Source: Cloeon dipterum
Lineage: Eukaryota > Arthropoda > Insecta > Ephemeroptera > Baetidae
Length of the DNA: 64,000 nucleotides
Assembly (NCBI RefSeq): GCF_949628265.1
Contig: NC_088786.1
Span: forward strand, 21,225,681-21,289,680
Direction of reading: 5' to 3'
The notes beneath the pieces were generated by a model. The model had not been told where the DNA came from and ran no database searches. It worked only from the letters and a program-made list of their open reading frames with translations. Made by a program: the position numbers and the translations under genes. Each line of letters begins with the position of its first letter. Position 1 is the first letter of the stretch. This document shows, one piece after another, positions 4,721-20,508 of the stretch.

Positions 4721-5870
4721 AAAAGAGATAAAAATTCTAATTAGAATATTAAAACTAAAATTGTTTTTGAAAATTACATTTTAATGAAACAGGATTCAAT
4801 AATTAACGGTGGTCTCGACGTTGCCCATCGGTTAACCGTTGGGTTTTGGTTATCAAAGTTTTAATAATTTTTACTTTTATATGTTCATTTACTATATAAT
4901 ATTAATTTAAAACCTGATAATTGACAAAAAAGTATGGACATTTGAGGGTAAAAACGACTATAAGAAATATAGTGCCCACGCATGGGTTAACCACTGGGGG
5001 ACCAAAAGTTACACCTTGGGTGGTTAATTTAAAATGCATCAAAATTTGGATTTTCACTCATTAAATAACATTTTTTCTGTGCCCAAGAATTAACCCAAAC
5101 AGTTAATGAATCTTTCATTTCACACAGCAGTTATCCCATCCGAGTTGCCCGAAAGGTGCCCTTTTGGTGCCCACGACTGGGCACTGGTATTTTGGATGAT
5201 CCAAACCAAATTAAAAAATAAATAAATGAAACATAATTCAAGATCATGCCTGAATTGCAAGACCCCCCTTAACTCAACTTTTGCTAGGTGACCACGGTTA
5301 CCACCCTGCCCGCTCCGGCTATCCGAAAGGTGCCCGTTCGGTGCCCAAGACTGGGCACTGGCATTTCAACATGATCCAAGCAAAATATCAAAAAAATTGC
5401 AGTGAAAAATGATTGAAGATCATGCCTGAAATGCTAAACCACCCTTAATTTTAATTTTGTTGGATGACCGCAAAAGTGACCTCCTGCCCGCTCTGGTTAT
5501 CCGAAAGGTGCCCATTCGATGCCCAAGGCTGGGCGCTGGCAATTTCGGTGATCCAAGCAAAATTTCGACAAAAATTTAATGAAACATGATTCAGGATCAT
5601 GCCTGAAATGCAAAATCACCCATAGTTTTAATTTTTTTAGGTTACCGCAAGTAACCCCCTGCCCGCTCCGGGTAACCGAAAGGTGCCCATCGGGTGCCCA
5701 AGACTGGGCACTCAAAATTTGCATGATCCAAGCCAAATTTAAAAAAAAAATCCAATGAAACATGAATCAGGATCATGCCTCAAACACAAAACCACTCTTT
5801 GCTCAACTTTTGTCAGGTGACCGAAAAGTGACCGCGGTTACCCCTCTGCTCGCTGGGTAAAACACTCTCG
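4570..5870. repeat. Repeat block A: GC-rich head, AT-rich middle and about 4 copies of a 175-bp tandem unit
   Basis: The head (CTGCCGACAGTAGCGCCAC at about 4620) and the middle (GTTGCCCATCGGTTAACCG at about 4823) recur at 6690 and 6890. The tail is tandem: the phrase CCGAAAGGTGCCC followed by a TGGGCAC palindrome appears near 5149, 5324, 5500 and 5674, a period of about 175 bp. Each unit carries the imperfect palindrome GTGCCCAAGACTGGGCAC. Short ORFs inside are artefacts of the repeat. Confidence 0.8.
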
Positions 5871-6629
5871 AGCTATTATATAGCCATAAATTGAAAATGA
5901 CTTTAAATAGAGCCAAGTTAACGCTTGCAAACAAATGCTGGCATTCACTCGCCCGGCTTAAACATCTGATTAAAATCAGTGAAATCTTAAATTTGAGCCT
6001 TAAATTAAGTCTAAATTTAGGCACACAAATATAACAACAAAATAGCTATCAAACACACAAGTTACCACACTCATTTATTCCTTCATGTGGTCCGCAGTAT
6101 TTAGCATTTCCACTTGTTCCTGTCAAATTGTTGTTTTACGTCTCCGGAGTCGCATCCAGCCGTCTCTTCCATTCCATATCAGCGAAAAATAGCACCAAAA
6201 GACATCACGCTACAAAATAAAATGCAATTTATTACTTTTTCTACTCAATAAATTCGCCATGCATTTAAATGCATACCTGCATGCTGCGCGGCAAAGGTTC
6301 AGTTCGGTTGTCCCGGTTGTCCAAGCTTGGAATCCCTTCCTGTACATATGCAGACAGATTAGGGCGGGACACGGTGCAAGCCTGCTGACACAAGGATGAT
6401 AATAAACAATTTGAAATGACAATTTTGGTGTTTACATAAAATCAGTTTTACGCGCGCGTATTTTTGTAAGCCCTCCCTGCTAAAATCTAAGTAAATTCAA
6501 TATGCCCTTCCTTGCAAACCATCCGTCATCCGTCCAAGGATTCGTTGATTAAGTTGATTTCTCGAAACACGTCCAAAAACACGGCGAAAATCTCTGACGA
6601 CAATTATGATGCAATAATCCATCCGTCCT

Positions 6630-8115
6630 GTTTGTTGTTCGTTCTCAAACACAAACATAACCAGCACGGCGGCAGATTATGCTACTGCCGACAGTGGCGC
6701 CACGCGCGGCCTGACGAGTGTAACAATGAAACGCGCGCGAAAGCTGCTTGAGTGAATTGTGCTCAAAACGATTAAATTAAAAGAGTTTAAAATGCTACTA
6801 AGGGTATATTAAAACTCAAATAATATATTTTTAATAAATACTTTTTAACGTTACACGGAATAAATAATTAATTGTGGTTATGAGGTTGCCCATTGGTTAA
6901 CCATTGGGAAACCCCTTTTGGTTATCATATAGTTAATTTTTTAAGTTACTTATGTATTTCACTAAATAAATAAATTTAAACCTGAATTGAAAAAATCTGA
7001 AAAAATTTTAGAATTAAAAGGAGTTAAAAAAAATATGGTGCCCGCGCATGGGCTAACCATTTGGTGACCAAAAGGTACACAATGGGTGGTTATTTTAAAA
7101 TGCAAAAAAATTTAATTTCCGCTCATTAAATACCATCTTTTATCTGTGCCCAAAAATTGACCCAAACAGTTCATGAACCGGTCACACCGCAGTTAACCCA
7201 TTAGAGCTACTCAAAAGGTGCCCTTTGGGTGCCCATGCCCACGATAGGGCACTGGCATTTTGAGATGATCCGAGCCAAATTTCCAAAATTTTCAAATGAA
7301 TCTTGATTTTGGGTCTGAAATGGAAAAAAACCATTTGTTCAACTCTTTTTAGGTGACCGCAAGTGACCATAATTGCCCCCCTGCCCGCTCCAGTTACCCG
7401 AAAGGTGCCCATTGAGTGCCCAAGACCGGGCACAGGCATTTTGTTATGATCCCAAGCAGAATATCAAAAAATCAAGTAAAAAATGATTGAAGGTCACTCC
7501 TAAAATGCAAAACCACCCTTAATTTTAATTTTGTTAGGTGACCGCAAGTGACCCCCTGCCAGCACTGGGTAACCAAAAGGTGCCCATCGGGTGCCCAAGA
7601 CCGGGCACTGGCAATTCGACATGATCTAAGCAAAATTTCAAAAAATTCCAGCAAAAAATGATTGAAGGTCATGCCTGAAATGCAAAACCATCCATAACTT
7701 TAATTTTGTTAGGTGACCGCAAGTGACCATAGTTAACCGCCCGCCCGCTCCGAGTATCCGAAAGGTGCCCGATGGGTGCCCAAGACTGGGCACTGGCAAT
7801 TTCGGTGATCCAAGCCAAATTTAGACTAAAATTTAATGAATCATGATTCAGGATCATGCCTGAAATGCAAAATCACCCTTAGTTTTAATTTTGTTAGGTG
7901 ACCCCAAGTAAGTCCCTGCCCGCTCCGGGTAACCGAAAGGTGCCCATCGGGTGCCCAAGACTGGGCACTCAAAATTTGCATGATCCAAGCCAAATTTAAA
8001 AAAAATCCAATGAAACATGAATCAGGATCATTCCTTAAATGCAAAACCACACTTTGTTCAACTTTCGTCAGGTGACCGAAAAGTGACCGCGGTTACCCCT
8101 CTGCTCGCTGGGGAG
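6630..8115. repeat. Repeat block B: second copy of the same block with 5 tandem units
   Basis: This block is in the same orientation as the one at 4570-5870. The tandem phrase GGTGCCC...TGGGCAC recurs near 7213, 7396, 7570, 7756 and 7931. Both blocks end in the same words (GACCGCGGTTACCCCTCTG at about 5837 and 8083), so the whole assembly duplicated as a unit. The intervening 5870-6630 stretch is single-copy, AT-rich, and shows no gene. Confidence 0.8.
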
Positions 8116-8129
8116 TACATTAAAGAGAT

Positions 8130-8490
8130 TTGCGCTCGCTCTTAGATTGAGACTGAAAAGCGAGCGAGCGTTTGGTCATCACAGTGAGTATCAAAAGCGA
8201 TCGGCCGCTTCTCGTACTCACTTTGATGACCAAAATCGCCGATCGCTTCAGTCTCAACTGAGAGCGAACGTTTGGTCATCACAGTGATAACCAAAAGCGT
8301 CTGGCCGCTTCTCGTACTCACGGTGATGACCAAAATGCTCGCTCGCTTCAGTATCAACTGAGAACGAGCGTTTCGATCTCACAGTGAGTACGAGAAGCGT
8401 CCGGCCGCCTCTGATACTCACTGTGAGACTAAAAGTTGCATTATCAATTTGAGAACAGCATTTTGACACTCACAGTGAAAATTTTTTCTG
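8130..8490. repeat. Palindromic tandem array, about 3.3 copies of a roughly 105-bp unit
   Basis: Each unit holds GGTCATCACAGTGA and its near inverse TCACNNTGATGACC around a GGCCGCTTCTCGTACTCAC core. The unit is therefore itself an inverted repeat and could fold into a cruciform or hairpin. Copies are separated by TCAACTGAGA-type words. Overlapping short ORFs on the minus strand are repeat artefacts. Confidence 0.75.
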
Positions 8491-12420: not shown

Positions 12421-12795
12421 TTTAGTGACCTACTAGATTTTGTATAATGTGGATACTTTTTTATTTACAGATCGCATAATTATGTGATATCACTCAGCGC
12501 CTGAAAACTTGTTGAGGGTGTCGCTGCTTTAAAACGGAAGAGGACGCTACCGCCATGCTAATATAGAAAGGAAGTCTATCATAACCAACCTGAAGTGTGC
12601 ACATCGTAGCCAAGATCAAAATTTTGAAAATATTTTTAAATTTTCTTTTGCAGGTTAGTTCTTAGCAATTTATTTGAGCAAAAGTTTGATAGTTTATTTT
12701 GTTTCAGGAGACTGATTCTTACAACAAGATTCCCACATGAATTTGGTGTTCAGTTAGGATTGAAGCGCGATATTCGCGTTGACCCCAATAGGGCG

Positions 12796-13592
12796 GTATC
12801 TGCAATATGGAATTAGACCTTAACATTTTTTTCAGTTTGATCGCTGCGTTGCGTTAAGGCGTTGGAATAATCCTCTTTTGAAGGAAAACAAAAAGCGATG
12901 TCAAGGTGGTAGTTAAATTTTTCGAAACCATTACCATGTATTTTTCAGATGAAAGCAGTCGATTGCGTTAGGATTTGAAATATTGAAACTAGAGAATTTT
13001 TATCGCTGCACCCGTAATAGTGACCACGGTTACGGAGCCTAAATTAAGGCGGTAGTATTTTCTCGTGGAGTACTTTTATGGATTTTACAGACGAAAGCAG
13101 CTATGTCCATTAATGATGCACCCGGTGCACAAGCGATAACAAATTAGTCCTTGTTTGGGCGAGAAGCTATCAACAGCGGTAGGATAACATCGTTTCGTAT
13201 TACTATTATTTTGCAGATGAAGCGGTTCACTTTTCGTCGTGTTGAGTAATAAATATCAGCTGGGCCTAATATTGAAAGGCAGTTACAAAGAACAAAATAA
13301 TACAAAGCGGTAGGGTAAAGTAGTCTTGCCATCATGTGTTTTTGCAGATGTAGCTGATCTAAATCCATCCAGTATAGAAAATTGTCTCGGTTTATACTAT
13401 GGCTATAAATTTGCGGTAGGGAATATTCGATTTTTTGCGCTCATGTTTTCTTGCAGATTAAGCGGTTTTGTCATCTTTGGAATCGACCCTTCAGCCGCGG
13501 CTGATGAATTTAAGACATGTATAATAGTCAGGAAAAAGCTCAAAACGTGGTAGGGAAAAGCTCAAAATTCCCAATTACGAGTTCTTTTGCAG
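12796..13592 (+). other. Ladder 1: seven intron-like segments of 38-43 nt between duplicated exons
   Basis: GT...AG segments lie at 12796-12835, 12909-12948, 13052-13090, 13179-13216, 13310-13347, 13416-13456 and 13550-13592. Each starts GTAG or GTAT after a GCG or GTG and ends in a pyrimidine-rich TTGCAG, TTCAG or TTACAG. The exons between (68-103 nt) often begin ATGAAGCGG, ATGAAAGCAG or similar and end GCG/GTG, so exon plus intron seems to have duplicated as a unit. Introns of neighbouring coding genes are mostly 50-60 nt or longer, so these are unusually short. Confidence 0.55.
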
Positions 13593-13677
13593 ATGACGCC
13601 GAATGGTCTGCAGTTGCGTTGAAAAGCTGCAGTTGTTGAGAAATTGTAGAAAAAAGAACAGTATATCATTAGGGTTC

Positions 13678-15332
13678 GTGGGGGGTTCCCTAATAACCTC
13701 TTTAGAGTTTTCAGGTCGTTAGACTGACTGGTGATATTAAGCCTGTCAACACGTTTAGGCGGCAATTGTGTCCAGTTGTAATTATCGGTTGATTGTTATT
13801 GCAGCCTTGATTGAATGGTAATGAGAATGGGTGGGGTTTAAACTAACTTTCGTTGCTAACAGAAGGCAGCTGCTTGGAAAGAAAAATAGTCCCCAGTCTA
13901 GTAGGTTTTGCCAGGACGAAGCGTGCGTGTGGATCGCTCGGTTTATCAACTCTATCGACAGTCAAGTTGAAGATTCTGCCTGCTGGGCCGTAGAAGCAGC
14001 AGAAAATCAAGATACGATGACACAAATTTAAAATTGCATCATTTGTTTGGGGGCGGGGAACTTCTAATCCCTCTGTTGTCAGTCAGGGTGAAGGCGCCCT
14101 TCGCGTGAAGTCCCTAATCATAAGCAGCACTCTCGCCTTATGTAAATTCCTTGTATCGTGCCGATTTGAAGCTCCAACGTGAAGATTGCGTAAGACGGAA
14201 TTTTGATTATCATCTTGAACCATTGTTCGACAGGAGCGGAAATGCCTTTGCGACAAGCCACCCGTATCTGAAGTCCCCGTTAGAGATAAACCATGTGAAA
14301 ATGAAACGAACGTAACAATGTTAGGGTGGGGGCGAGGGTTCATTAACCTTCTTTTGTCTCCAGAACCGTTCAGCAGTATGATTTAGCAGACTCGAGAGTT
14401 AAAAATACAAGTGCCTCGTGCCGTCTCCCTGAAGGAGCTGAAATAAGTTTATCAGATAATATTTCTGGCGTTTGGGAGGGGTTTCGTAACCTGCTGATTG
14501 CAGTTCCTGTCTGTCAACAGTAGAGCAACCCTATGCAAGTTTTTCGGAATCACAAGATAGCGACGAGATTCGACCCATTCACAATTCCCGGTTGGTGATC
14601 TGCGTTTAAAGCAGCTGAATCTAGAAGATATAATATGTCGGTCGGTCTGATAATTTAATTAGGTCATTGCTGGGTGGGGGGAAAGGGGTTCAAGTTAACC
14701 CGTTTTGAGATTTCAGCCAATCCTGCTATGCACCGACGCTGATTAAAGAATATCTACCTGCTACGCGTTTGAAGAAGAATCGAGTATCACGAGAATGTGG
14801 AGTCTGCCTTAGTATTCGGGAACAGAACGTTACCCTCCTGGTCGAGAAAACGCGGAAGCAGTCAAGCCTGCTACAGGATCCTCCTTAAATGCATTGATGC
14901 CCCTTTCCGGTTTGCTTGCGGAAGAAGTCAACAAATACTCCACTTGCTTTTCTTATCGGTCAGGTAGACAGACTAAGGAGAGTCTGATATAATTTCCATG
15001 TTTGGGTGGGGTGGGGGTTTGTAATTAACCCGACTTTTGCTGTGGCACAGTTTGGAGCACCCAACTGAAGTAAGGCCACGACTTAAGAGAAATCTGCCCC
15101 GGAATTGGGATGCCAAGGAGCGCCGAAACATTTCACCGGGAGCGTTTGGCTGCACGTAACGTCTTACCAAGCAGAAAGAACATGACTCGCACGAAAATGA
15201 TGTACGATGATCAGCCGTCCATGCCTCTGTTTCTATATTCGCTCGACCAGCTCAATGCAGAAAGAAAAGATATCCAGTTTCATTGTCTAGGTAGTTAGGA
15301 TCAGAGGGGGGTACTAATGTCTTGTTTTTCAG
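13678..15332 (+). other. Ladder 2: eight intron-like segments of 32-45 nt with G-rich 5' ends
   Basis: Segments lie at about 13678-13714, 13831-13862, 14045-14082, 14326-14363, 14470-14503, 14674-14716, 15006-15050 and 15291-15332. Most begin with GTGGGG or GTTTGGG. They contain a branch-site-like TTAAC, CTAAC, CTAAT or TACTAAT, and end CAG after a T-rich stretch. Exons between are 106-289 nt without a shared ORF. The G-run at the donor side is unlike the GTRAGT donors of the coding genes here. Confidence 0.55.
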
Positions 15333-16146
15333 CTTTCCCATTCCCCGGTTCGCGTGAGGTGTGTCCTAAGCATAGATCGCGTGCATTGTCCTGAGCTGGT
15401 ATCCATTGTGGCCGTGCCTGAGCAGCAGCGGGCCTTTGCAGAGCTGGTGACCGAGCAGCCAGTCCCGTGCGTCCGTCAGTAGAGCATTCATTCCTGGGGT
15501 TACGAGCGAGAGGCTGGATAGGGAGAAAGAAGTCGCGTCATTCGCACCGAGCCGAGTAGAAAAAGAAGATAAGTCCTCGCGTTTTTCACCGTTCGCGCTG
15601 AGAGTCTCCGTGGGTCCGGATTCCGAAAATTGGGTGCATTACGCCCCTTCCTCCGATACTTTCGTCCCGTCATTACTTCTATTCAGTTGGTCACTTTCGT
15701 CGTCGTCGCGTTTTTTTTTTGGGTCCCCGTTAGGCAGGAGAAGAAAGAAGAGAACCGTCCTCGTGGAAGACGATGGCCTGGTGAAGAAGAAGACGGCCTG
15801 GCGCAGAAGCAGATGGCATGCAGACGAAGAAGACGGCCTGGAGAAGAAGAAGACGCCGGACATCCAGGACAGATGCTAACTTGTGCCCACCCTGGGCTCG
15901 ACGAGAGTCTCAACGCCAGCGCTTCCTGCGCTAATTGGGGGGTTTCTGGCCAGCTAAATGCGGGTCCAGAAAGGTGGCTCAGGCCACGGGGGACGGGGGG
16001 CTCGTGCTTGAAGGCACGGTGAGGATAGAAGATGGCACCCCTTAAAATAATAAAACGCACGTGGCAATCAACCCTGGAACCCCTATTTTGCGGACTCCTG
16101 TTTCATCTATGAGATCAAGAGGTGAAATTAAGTATCACTAAACTTC

Positions 16147-16282
16147 GTCCTGGTCCCAGTAAAATTGCGCAACTGTCAACAACCAAACGCGAATTTCCTT
16201 GTTGCAAGAAAAGGTCAACAATCAATTCGACAATGAAAATTATGGTGTTTGTTGAACGTTGCGCAATTTTACCGGGACCAGG
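16147..16282. repeat. Small foldback (MITE-like) element, copy 1
   Basis: The arms (TCCTGGTCCCAGTAAAATTG at about 16148 and its inverse ending at about 16281) pair over about 27 bp. The interior word GTTGCAAGAAAAGGTCAACA resembles GTTGCAAAAATCGCTCAACA in the element at 38207-38351, so both are probably one family. It would lie inside the intron 16019-16352 of the candidate ncRNA. Confidence 0.65.
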
Positions 16283-17003
16283 ACGGACCTATTTTATGAA
16301 TCTGCTTCGCTGTCTCGCGATTTTTATTTGATTTCAGATTATTTTTGTCGCAGTTGGATAAGAGCTGATGCCCAGGCAAGCAAAGATTGATCTTCGCAAC
16401 GTGCGGGAGCTGTCCTCATGCAGTCCCCGGCCGGGGGGTTTGCCAAGTGCAGCCCGTCGGCCACAGCAGCACGGCTATGCCTGCGACATTCTGTCCGCAG
16501 ACGGGGCTTGGGCCCCTGGAAAATTGTCGCCAGTGTCAGGCTGGCCATTAGGCCGCCCGGTCGGTGACAATTTCCAGCCCATCCCGTCTCCTGCGACCAT
16601 TGAACTTCTGCATTCTGACTGTCCTGAACGATCCCCTACATTATTAGGAGTTGTGGCATCGTTTTGGATGGTGGAATGTAGAGGTAGATGGTTACAGGGG
16701 GCATATGCCGTTTGCTCTGTGCCGTGTCACTCGGGGCGCGACATGATGGAAATGCAGCCCAATCATGCAATATGAACTGGAGGCCATCGCTTAACCTGGA
16801 TAATTGGGGAAATTTTGTTCGACTGGAGTGAACCTTCCGCCAAAAGGAGATTGTATGTGAGTGTGCTTGGATCGTTTCAACGTGGGACCAGAGGAATTTC
16901 CCCATTCCTTCTGCAAACTTCCTTTACAACCGTGTCGCATACCGGAGTCTCGCAACTTCGGTGCCAAAGAGTGACCGGCATAAAATCAGCTCGACCTTAA
17001 TTT

Positions 17004-17072
17004 CCATACTGACTGTGATGTTTTAAACACAGTCGGTTGGAAAAGAATGGTGAACGTTTACAATCACCATTC
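17004..17072 (+). ncRNA. Two adjacent stable hairpins upstream of the ENE-like elements
   Basis: Hairpin 1: ACTGACTGTG (17008-17017) pairs with 17028-17037 through one G-U, and CCA/TGG extends it past a one-base bulge. The loop is ATGTTTTAAA. Hairpin 2: GAATGGTGA (17045-17053) pairs perfectly with 17064-17072 around loop ACGTTTACAA. Hairpin 2 ends directly where the first ENE-like stem begins. Confidence 0.7.
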
Positions 17073-17127
17073 AACCAAGTTTTTTCTCCCTTTCATTTAG
17101 ACTTTAATTGAAAGGGTTTTCTTGGTT
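17073..17127 (+). ncRNA. ENE-like element 1 (U-rich internal loop between two stems)
   Basis: The lower stem AACCAAG (17073-17079) pairs perfectly with 17121-17127. The upper stem CCCTTTCA (17088-17095) pairs perfectly with 17109-17116, with a 13-nt loop. Between them face a U6CU tract (17080-17087) and a U4 tract (17117-17120). Known ENEs (KSHV PAN RNA, MALAT1) use such opposed U-tracts to clamp a poly(A) tail in a U-A-U triple helix and block decay. Function here is inferred from architecture. Confidence 0.65.
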
Positions 17128-17160
17128 ATGAAATTACCAATTACTTATGGTAGTTTCTGA

Positions 17161-17208
17161 CACCAATTTTTCCCTTAATATTTCCCATTCTAAGGGTTTT
17201 TATTGGTT
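17161..17208 (+). ncRNA. ENE-like element 2 (closest to the PAN RNA layout)
   Basis: The lower stem ACCAA (17162-17166) pairs with TTGGT (17203-17207). U5 (17167-17171) faces U5 plus A (17197-17202). The upper stem CCCTTA (17172-17177) pairs with 17191-17196 around a 13-nt loop. The stem-U5-stem-loop-stem-U5-A-stem order is the one I recall for the PAN RNA ENE. Confidence 0.65.
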
Positions 17209-17259
17209 GTAAAAGAGATATGAAATTACATAATTATTGTAAAATTTTACCAAAGTGGA

Positions 17260-17297
17260 AACCAATTTTTTGTCCCTGTTGTAGGGTTTTAATGGTT
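17260..17297 (+). ncRNA. ENE-like element 3 (shorter upper stem)
   Basis: The lower stem AACCA (17260-17264) pairs with TGGTT (17293-17297). A U-rich 5' side (17266-17273) faces UUUUAA (17287-17292). The upper stem CCCT (17274-17277) pairs with 17283-17286 around GTTGT. It is the weakest of the four. Confidence 0.5.
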
Positions 17298-17338
17298 GTA
17301 ATATTTGGATTAAGAAAATGTGATAATGTATCAGAACT

Positions 17339-17388
17339 AAACCAATTTTTCTCCCTAGCTCTAAAATTCTAGGGGTTTTCTTTGGTTT
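17339..17388 (+). ncRNA. ENE-like element 4
   Basis: The lower stem AAACCAA (17339-17345) pairs perfectly with 17382-17388. U5CU (17346-17352) faces GUUUUCU (17375-17381). The upper stem CCCTAG (17353-17358) pairs perfectly with 17369-17374 around a 10-nt loop. Stem sequences differ from those of elements 1-3 while pairing is kept, which argues for selection on structure. Confidence 0.6.
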
Positions 17389-17642
17389 TCAAATCTTCTG
17401 ACCTTGACATCTGCAAAATCTGTATCTGGTTTTATGCTCTCGTCTAGAATTCCAGATAAAATCGAGCTTCACTCCATCGCAATGTGTTCCTGACAGTTAT
17501 AGTTATGTGCAATTATACCGAAAAGTGTTTGCTGTGTACTTGATTATAATTTATTGTTCATTATATTTGGAAAAAATTGATTAAAAAATGTATTTATAAA
17601 TTGACTTGCTGGTCGTCAGCTTTTAATTAACAACTTTTTCGC

Positions 17643-17648
17643 AATAAA
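17643..17648 (+). terminator. AATAAA polyadenylation signal, likely end of the ncRNA
   Basis: AATAAA stands about 250 nt after the last ENE-like hairpin, just before a C9 run. If used, the poly(A) tail would be available to the ENE-like loops. Confidence 0.45.
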
Positions 17649-17659
17649 AGTTTCCCCCC

Positions 17660-18223
17660 CCCCTCCCGACGTCTTCCCGCGCTACCTTGATTCCGATCAT
17701 CCAGAACGTCTAGATTTGGCAAGTAGAACAACCAATTTTGAATTGTAGTGATCTGGATGGATATAAATATTAAAGTAGAGTCAAATCCGTGCCTTTTAGA
17801 ATTTTAATAATTATTCCCTAGTCATTTACATTTAATAGTATACATTTTAGAATATTTTAGATCCTTTATTAAATTGCCCCAGCCATCCAGATTAGTTTTA
17901 ACGTAAATTATTGGCACTAAAGAAAAGAAAATTAAATATAGATTTACGCTTGATTATTTTGTATATTTCCTTGAGCTTGCCGCCTACCTAGGCTAAGAGG
18001 AGAGACCACCCGGCCGCTGCACCTTCTACTTGGCATGGGAACGCTGATCCGAGAGCCAGACCGAGCGAGATCCCTTTCTCATCTAGGTACGGCTGGTAAT
18101 TTGGCAAAGTAGTTGAGCGCACTTGTACGAATCTTCTCTTCTGTCTCTAGGAGATGCCGACGTTAGTTCTCACCGGGGACGAGCCCTTCTACTGTATGGC
18201 CAGGGTTAGGCTACGCTAGAGGT
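17660..18223. other. AT-rich spacer, then a GC-richer leader to the 381-bp array
   Basis: 17.66-17.97 kb is AT-rich without features. 17.98-18.22 kb is GC-richer and shows a possible 64-nt intron: GTACGG after TCATCTAG (about 18086), and TCTCTAG before GAGATGCC. No ORF is present. It may be the first exons of a transcript running into the array. Confidence 0.3.
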
Positions 18224-20508
18224 CCGCAGAGACCGAAGGAGAACTGACGTGAGGATGGAACACCACTGCGTTGAGCCTTAGCGAGAGTGCTCGGAACGGC
18301 TAACTATACACCGATGCAGCCTACTTCTTCTGTCGGGAAAGAGAAGCAAAATAATGGGAGCCCTGAGCACAGGTGGGACTTCTTATTCAGGAGATTCATT
18401 CTCTGACCGACACTCTAAATGAACAGTCGAAACGACATGTTCCTCGCCTCCGCTCATCTCCGATAAATGTCTGTTACAGGAGCGAGTGCCCTAGCAGCGA
18501 TGAACTGGAGTCTTGACCACGACGAGAAGAAGAAAACACCACACTACAAGAAAGCAGTACACTCACATATACACAATTCCTGTCAGATTGAAACGAAATA
18601 AACGAAAAAGAGACCGGAGGAGAACTGACGTGAGGATGGAACACCACTGCGTTGAGCCTTAGCGAGAGTGCTCGGAACGGCTAACTATACACCGATGCAG
18701 CCTACTTCTTCTGTCGGGAAAGAGAAGCAAAATAATGGGAGCCCTGAGCACAGGTGGGACTTCTTATTCAGGAGATTCATTCTCTGACCGACACTCTAAA
18801 TGAACAGTCGAAACGACATGTTCCTCGCCTCCGCTCATCTCCGATAAATGTCTGTTACAGGAGCGAGTGCCCTAGCAGCGATGAACCGGAGTCTTGACCA
18901 CGACGAGAAGAAGAAAACACCACACTACAAGAAAGCAGTACACTCACATATACACAATTCCTGTCAGATTGAAACGAAATAAACGAAAAAGAGACCGGAG
19001 GAGAACTGACGTGAGGATGGAACACCACTGCGTTGAGCCTTAGCGAGAGTGCTCGGAACGGCTAACTATACACCGATGCAGCCTACTTCTTCTGTCGGGA
19101 AAGAGAAGCAAAATAATGGGAGCCCTGAGCACAGGTGGGACTTCTTATTCAGGAGATTCATTCTCTGACCGACACTCTAAATGAACAGTCGAAACGACAT
19201 GTTCCTCGCCTCCGCTCATCTCCGATAAATGTCTGTTACAGGAGCGAGTGCCCTAGCAGCGATGAACCGGAGTCTTGACCACGACGAGAAGAAGAAAACA
19301 CCACACTACAAGAAAGCAGTACACTCACATATACACAATTCCTGTCAGATTGAAACGAAATAAACGAAAAAGAGACCGGAGGAGAACTGACGTGAGGATG
19401 GAACACCACTGCGTTGAGCCTTAGCGAGAGTGCTCGGAACGGCTAACTATACACCGATGCAGCCTACTTCTTCTGTCGGGAAAGAGAAGCAAAATAATGG
19501 GAGCCCTGAGCACAGGTGGGACTTCTTATTCAGGAGATTCATTCTCTGACCGACACTCTAAATGAACAGTCGAAACGACATGTTCCTCGCCTCCGCTCAT
19601 CTCCGATAAATGTCTGTTACAGGAGCGAGTGCCCTAGCAGCGATGAACCGGAGTCTTGACCACGACGAGAAGAAGAAAACACCACACTACAAGAAAGCAG
19701 TACACCCACATATACACAATTCCTGTCAGATTGAAACGAAATAAACGAAAAAGAGACCGGAGGAGAACTGACGTGAGGATGGAACACCACTGCGTTGAGC
19801 CTTAGCGAGAGTGCTCGGGACGGCTAACTATACACCGATGCAGCCTACTTCTTCTGTCGGGAAAGAGAAGCAAAATAATGGGAGCCCTGAGCACAGGTGG
19901 GACTTCTTATTCAGGAGATTCATTCTCTGACCGACACTCTAAATGAACAGTCAAAACGACATGTTCCTCGCCTCCGCTCATCTCCGATAAATGTCTGTTA
20001 CAGGAGCGAGTGCCCTAGCAGCGATGAACCGGAGTCTTGACCACGACGAGAAGAAGAAAACACCACACTACAAGAAAGCAGTACACCCACATATACACAA
20101 TTCCTGTCAGATTGAAACGAAATAAACGAAAAAGAGACCGGAGGAGAACTGACGTGAGGATGGAACACCACTGCGTTGAGCCTTAGCGAGAGTGCTCGGG
20201 ACGGCTAACTATACACCGATGCAGCCTACTTCTTCTGTCGGGAAAGAGAAGCAAAATAATGGGAGCCCTGAGCACAGGTGGGACTTCTTATTCAGGAGAT
20301 TCATTCTCTGACCGACACTCTAAATGAACAGTTGAAACGACATGTTCCTCGCCTCCGCTCATCTCTGATAAATGTCTGTTACAGCAGCGAGTGCCCTAGC
20401 AGCGATGAACCGGAGTCTTGACCACTACGAGAAGAAGAAAACACCACACTACAAGAAAGCAGTACACCCACATATACACAATTCCTGTCAGATTGAAACG
20501 AAATAAAG
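18224..20508 (+). repeat. Six-copy tandem array, 381-bp unit, nearly identical copies
   Basis: The word GAGGATGGAACACCACTGCG recurs at 18251, 18632, 19013, 19394, 19775 and 20156, exactly 381 bp apart. Differences are single bases and are shared by neighbours: copies 4-6 have CACCCAC, copies 5-6 have GGGACGG, and copy 1 alone has GAACTGG. This suggests stepwise local duplication. Each unit holds a GTGAGG donor-like site (18249), a TGTTACAG acceptor-like site (ending 18479), a 30-nt GT...AG segment (18557-18586) and an AATAAA. There is no long ORF, and it is not 5S rDNA, snRNA or histone sequence that I recognise. The units may be repeated exons of a non-coding transcript. Confidence 0.9.

Follow-up and report, generated by a model that had tools for sequence, protein, structure and literature searches.

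The locus described here raises the question of whether an arthropod chromosomal gene can carry, in series, RNA elements of the kind that clamp poly(A). In the account of KSHV PAN RNA given in the excerpted text of PMC4246217, the ENE is a stem-flanked U-rich loop that lies close to the 3′ terminus of a non-coding RNA and sequesters the poly(A) tail. A preliminary description of the window (the whole 64-kb stretch of DNA that was analysed) had claimed four tandem hairpins of this type at 17073..17389, and all four are present on the plus strand, where they can be seen in the sequence as well as in the folds. We consider it probable that these hairpins, E1 to E4, make up a tandem ENE-like stability array that clamps poly(A) in the 3′-terminal part of an RNA that is spliced, polyadenylated and probably non-coding.

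The hairpins were delimited on the plus strand by folding and by a layout descriptor, and they share a common plan in which ACCA(A)/(U)UGGU forms the core of the lower stem, U5-6 faces U4-5 in the loop, and the upper stem is of the CCCU/AGGG type. The ACCAA/TTGGT-type lower stems, opposed U-tracts and CCC/GGG upper stems of the preliminary description are thus found in all four. E1 (17073..17127) combines a 7-bp lower stem, AACCAAG/CUUGGUU, with an 8-bp upper stem, CCCUUUCA/UGAAAGGG, and its U loop has U6, followed by CU, on the 5′ side and U4 on the 3′ side. E2 (17161..17208) has lower and upper stems of 6 bp each, ACCAAU/AUUGGU and CCCUUA/UAAGGG, around a loop of U4 (U5 with the first U unpaired) and U5. 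In E3 (17260..17297), the weakest of the four, both stems are 5 bp long, AACCA/UGGUU and CCCUG/UAGGG, the loop is U6 opposite U4, and the predicted fold energy of -7.0 kcal/mol denotes the lowest stability in the array. E4 (17339..17388) pairs AAACCAA with UUGGUUU over 7 bp, has a U5/U4 loop, and extends its CCCUAG/CUAGGG upper stem by a U-G pair at the loop, giving (U)CCCUAG/CUAGGG(G). The 3′ U-tract is therefore U4 in three of the four hairpins. Predicted unpaired probabilities of the 5′ and 3′ U-tracts are 1.0 and 1.0 in E1, 0.81 and 1.0 in E2, 0.74 and 0.57 in E3, and 1.0 and 0.99 in E4, which makes the tracts of E3 the least open in the ensemble prediction. Scored against model R1, which was itself built from E1-E4, the hairpins reach 56.6, 31, 39.1 and 33.8 bits, respectively. 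A further plus-strand hairpin, GAAAUUACCA/UGGUAGUUUC, is predicted in the linker between E1 and E2 (17130..17157).

The four-fold ENE-like layout is real, and its clustering is far beyond chance. Our layout-only descriptor called for a lower stem of at least 5 bp with at least two G-C pairs, an upper stem of at least 4 bp with at least three G-C pairs, and loops of 4-9 nt that each contain UUUU, with G-U pairs allowed. Across both strands of the window it matches four times, at exactly E1-E4, with no match on the minus strand. In contrast, 60 dinucleotide shuffles of the window gave a mean of 0.57 matches (maximum 3) with no two within 150 nt, and among 2000 shuffles of the 341 local bases three contained a single match and none contained two (mean 0.0015). 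The descriptor also found one isolated match (locus L009) in 15 other loci of the same genome (67,576 bases), and 26 matches in 240 loci of viral contigs (2,068,123 bases), none of them within 200 nt of another. A strict sequence pattern built from E1-E4 matches nine times in the 190-Mb genome, against once for the reversed pattern; four of the nine fall in the array, within 305 bases, and the ENE-like layout is absent from the other five, each folded on its matched strand. In viral contigs, the strict pattern matched at least 120 stretches, with one match apiece in the 80 listed. The same figures, at least 120 stretches and one match apiece in the 80 listed, were obtained there with a two-element pattern, a poor one that inside the window fits E2-E3 alone.

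Folding energy adds to this picture for the array as a whole. The 341-nt array is more stable on the plus strand than 100 of 100 shuffles (z -3.2), and its reverse complement also beats shuffles (z -3.5); because the reverse complement folds equally well, fold energy assigns no strand to the array. When 120-nt windows are considered, the excess stability lies at 16940-17239 and comes from E1, E2 and the stem-loops preceding them, while those covering E3 and E4 (17180-17479) show no gain over shuffles, with z between +0.6 and -1.1.

Assignment of the hairpins to the ENE class can be weighed feature by feature. Opposed U-tracts that form an internal loop, a feature of PAN-type ENEs, are found in all four hairpins, as are base-paired stems on both sides of that loop (lower 5-7 bp, upper 5-8 bp). 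The upper side carries G-C beside the U loop, as C-G in E1-E3 and behind a predicted U-G pair in E4. On the lower side, the adjoining pair is G-C in E1, U-A in E2 and A-U in both E3 and E4. In the excerpted text of PMC12501189, the G-C pairs adjoining the U-rich domains of the Evade ENE are essential. Since a lower-side G-C is present in only one of the four, we term the elements ENE-like and not proven ENEs; the claim of ENE elements holds for the stem and U-tract layout and is weakened at the lower junction. From their sequences, E1-E4 appear to be ENE-like elements of the known ENE kind in what would be a new arrangement. In Rfam, which may hold no ENE family, nothing from the window reaches gathering score, and six weak matches below that score lie in 15000-20000.

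Comparison with known systems sets the array apart in several respects. It resembles the KSHV PAN ENE, as described in that source's excerpted text, in its U-rich loop between stems and in its putative position near an RNA 3′ end, but it differs in having four elements where PAN RNA has one, in lying at an arthropod chromosomal locus, and in lacking the lower-side G-C in three of four hairpins. Multiplicity has a precedent in reporter work, in that several ENE copies were required for higher nuclear retention of a beta-globin reporter (PMC4246217, excerpts). On the opposite side, the same source states that PAN RNA deprived of its ENE was no more abundant in the cytoplasm. Several U-rich tracts per RNA, able to take up poly(A), are also described for plant transposon ENEs and dENEs such as rice TWIFB1 and Arabidopsis Evade (excerpts of PMC12501189, PMC10078130 and PMC10855403), and an arrangement of four U-rich tracts within a single stem-loop is described (PMC12501189, excerpts). 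The array shares with these elements the presence of several U-rich tracts in one RNA. A dENE, in turn, consists of two U loops stacked in one fold-back hairpin, whereas the centroid fold of the array has four separate hairpins joined by linkers; because the four loops lie in separate hairpins, the array does not have the dENE layout. A 2012 paper reportedly found ENE-like elements in insect viruses, namely a polydnavirus and a picorna-like virus, which provides an arthropod link, although the present locus is chromosomal and single-copy and has four elements.

The likeness among the four copies bears on how the array arose and on what has been kept. E1-E4 are mutually similar in all six comparisons, with at most 1% of 300 shuffles reaching the observed score. 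Among the spacers, one of ten comparisons stands above shuffles, that between S1 (E1-E2) and S2 (E2-E3), both of which contain ATGAAATTAC. This similarity therefore suggests, from the sequence, a trace of tandem duplication, and common descent by duplication could by itself account for some of the resemblance among the hairpins. The upper-stem continuations differ from copy to copy (CCCUUUCA, CCCUUA, CCCUG and CCCUAG) and their partner strands follow, in agreement with the co-variation that had been claimed. Three of 15 base pairs are changed on both sides among the four copies, a count reached by 32 of 500 shuffles, and pairing cells amount to 94.2% across the copies against 86.5% in shuffles, 14 of 500 of which reach 94.2%. 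These values come from an alignment of the four internal copies only, hand-padded and with rows partly edited, and the co-variation supports a kept structure, short of proof.

The sequence around the array is compatible with the 3′-terminal region of a spliced plus-strand RNA, a view supported by the distribution of acceptor-like sites. Sites were scored with a splice matrix derived from 12 hand-picked short coding introns of the window. Between 12500 and 17650, acceptor scores on the plus strand exceed 6 bits at 19 sites and 8 bits at 10, against means of 9.1 and 3.4 in shuffles of 300-nt blocks (0 of 200 and 1 of 200 shuffles reach the observed counts), and the minus strand has 10 and 2, against shuffle means of 8.1 and 2.7. 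The plus strand therefore exceeds the expectation from composition and the minus strand does not. Donor-like sites above 6 bits number seven on each strand and carry no strand signal. The putative terminal exon extends on the plus strand from 16338 to 17600; its start would follow one of three acceptor-like sites, at 16337 (11.8 bits), 16353 (10.7) or 16500 (9.4), and its end is guessed from candidate poly(A) signals. These signals, ATTAAA at 17580 and AATAAA at 17643 (17580..17648, plus strand), lie 192 and 255 nt past E4, and weaker variants occur at 17455 and 17595. The preliminary description had placed the array at the 3′ end of a candidate non-coding RNA; the excess of plus-strand acceptors, the downstream poly(A) signals and the frequent stops described below agree with it, while the RNA end itself is only a guess.

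Further predicted structure lies within this exon. Two simple plus-strand stem-loops immediately precede the array (17006..17073), in a region whose fold at 17000-17119 is strongly stable on either strand (z -8.4 on plus, -8.1 on minus). Farther upstream, a long extended plus-strand hairpin of 41 pairs, including 8 G-U, spans 16593..16700 and has no Rfam match at gathering score. Stability favours the plus strand at 16580-16699 (z -6.5 versus -3.1) and shows the opposite preference at 16460-16579 (z -5.3 on minus versus -2.2 on plus).

Upstream of the terminal exon, the plus strand at 12653..15332 has the appearance of a further part of the host gene, with short exons and short, G-rich candidate introns whose exact limits are uncertain. 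A regular series of 14 segments occupies 12909-15332; each is 32-45 nt long, starts with GT and ends with CAG, and the starts are mostly GTAGG, GTGGG or GTTTGGG. The segments are shorter than most of the short coding introns picked in the window (50-60 nt). After removal of the candidate introns, 12560-15450 contains 41, 55 and 43 stops in the three frames over about 780 codons. The upstream exons (window 12702-13870) have two partial paralogues at C1:36559519-36563720, with 85-88% identity (L132, L133 and L142). In the copy whose extent includes them, two G-rich segments of the candidate introns are absent, and donors 13678 and 13831 are therefore doubtful. Many of the paralogue indels have lengths not divisible by three, in keeping with non-coding exons, and a non-coding host RNA is plausible from these features. 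Three 10-kb stretches around the C1 paralogue contain no descriptor match on either strand, and the paralogue thus offers no comparison for the array.

By analogy with PAN RNA and plant ENEs, poly(A) would enter the open U loops and form U-A-U triples, about four per hairpin. At about four triples each, a single hairpin would grip a tail weakly, but four in series could together retain it. In this way, the array might bind several stretches of one tail and withhold them from deadenylases, and the RNA would accumulate. We envisage that the array grew by tandem duplication, with selection keeping the stems and U-tracts while the loops and most spacers drifted. Several observations count against a poly(A) clamp, namely the weakness of E3, the 3′ tract of U4 in three of four hairpins, the single lower-side G-C among the four, and the gap of 192-255 nt to the candidate poly(A) signals.

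These reservations give some room to other explanations, the foremost of which is that the hairpins are bound by a protein with a preference for U-rich or stem-loop RNA, through which they would act without any triple helix. A series of hairpins whose U-tracts are open is well suited to proteins of this type, and a lower junction without G-C in three of four copies speaks against an optimal triplex. However, protein sites of this sort would not by themselves predict two opposed U-tracts in every copy, both of which a U-A-U clamp needs, and we regard this explanation as unlikely. It is less likely still that the array is a functionless local tandem duplication of one hairpin. Four related copies that begin at intervals of 79-99 nt, with spacers 1 and 2 still similar, are what such an event would leave behind, yet the loops and most spacers have diverged while the stems, the U-tracts and some compensating pairs have been kept.

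Two further alternatives concern the kind of RNA that carries the array. It might lie in the 3′ UTR of an mRNA whose coding part is the open frame at 16362-16775, an arrangement that would be compatible with a clamp. This frame, the longest of the predicted transcript, encodes 135 aa from its ATG and exceeds the 95th percentile of shuffles (125 aa), but shuffles reach an ORF of 164 aa, the frame overlaps strong hairpins, and neither it nor the other ORFs tested has a Pfam domain at E 0.1. An mRNA of this kind appears improbable, to about the same degree as the functionless duplication. MALAT1 and MEN-beta are animal long non-coding RNAs whose 3′ ends likewise carry U-rich motifs; they use an A-rich tract encoded in the gene and have a tRNA-like processing site downstream. 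A corresponding end here would have the U-tracts take up the encoded A-rich stretch at 17571-17588, with no poly(A) tail involved. Six consecutive A occur twice there, from 17571 and from 17583, and could supply that stretch, but ordinary poly(A) signals lie close by and ARAGORN, run in its bacterial setting, which a tRNA-like fold may escape, found no tRNA gene in the window, unlike the MALAT1 type; we consider such an end very improbable. A nonamer associated with hsr-omega had no match in the window.

The preferred reading of a poly(A)-clamping array can be set against the examples described so far. According to the excerpted text of PMC12501189, eukaryotic genomes, when searched, yielded around 200 ENE motifs, mostly in plants and fungi. 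Among the matches listed in a search of titles and abstracts of the openly licensed literature, there was neither an ENE in an arthropod cellular RNA nor a four-unit ENE array. The claimed novelty of a four-ENE array in an insect cellular RNA agrees with that search, with the reservation that the elements are only ENE-like. As to the host, whose genome comprises 190 Mb in 10 contigs, an arginine kinase exon gives its best score among single-domain chains, 221 bits, with 5zhq, and 215-219 bits with others, all of them decapod entries, while a two-domain taurocyamine kinase chain totals 262 bits over two stretches; this agrees with a pancrustacean and stops short of identifying an insect. Cellular animal examples such as MALAT1 and MEN-beta rely on an encoded A-rich tract, and four clamp-like hairpins in one animal RNA would be a new arrangement. 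More tentatively, and with clearly less confidence than in the clamp itself, we suggest that a cellular long non-coding RNA of an arthropod may carry four ENE units in an array that clamps successive stretches of one tail, or the tails of several RNA molecules at once; the array would then stabilise the RNA and also, as a scaffold, bring polyadenylated RNA together. If the clamp reading is true, animals too use poly(A)-clamping elements, and do so in series in an arthropod chromosomal gene, and the effect of clamp number and spacing on RNA stability becomes testable.

The genomic setting of the array was also considered with respect to transposons, in whose RNAs dENEs are found. The array (317 bp) matches only itself in the genome and is single-copy, and the same is true of 16300-17060. 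A transposon family is thus unsupported for the array, which could conceivably be a single old transposon copy. The genome matches listed for 15400-17070 (40 of 822 candidates scored) all fall on a MITE-like inverted-repeat element at about 16144-16285, which would sit in an intron of the putative host gene; in the same 40 of 822 candidates, it has at least 40 other places at 93-97% identity and one at 84%. Partial genome matches resume past about 17600. The segment at 17687-17956 has copies elsewhere in the genome, at 82% in two places and weaker in others, and is perhaps a mobile element remnant beyond the putative 3′ end. Tandem repeats are found on both sides of the putative host gene. Just downstream, 18228-20507 is a tandem array of six copies of a 381-bp unit at 99% identity, to which a sequence on a different contig is related (88%, C2:7869688-7870160). 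More tandem arrays occur at 5149-8434, where the repeat units measure about 353, 175/360 and 100 bp.
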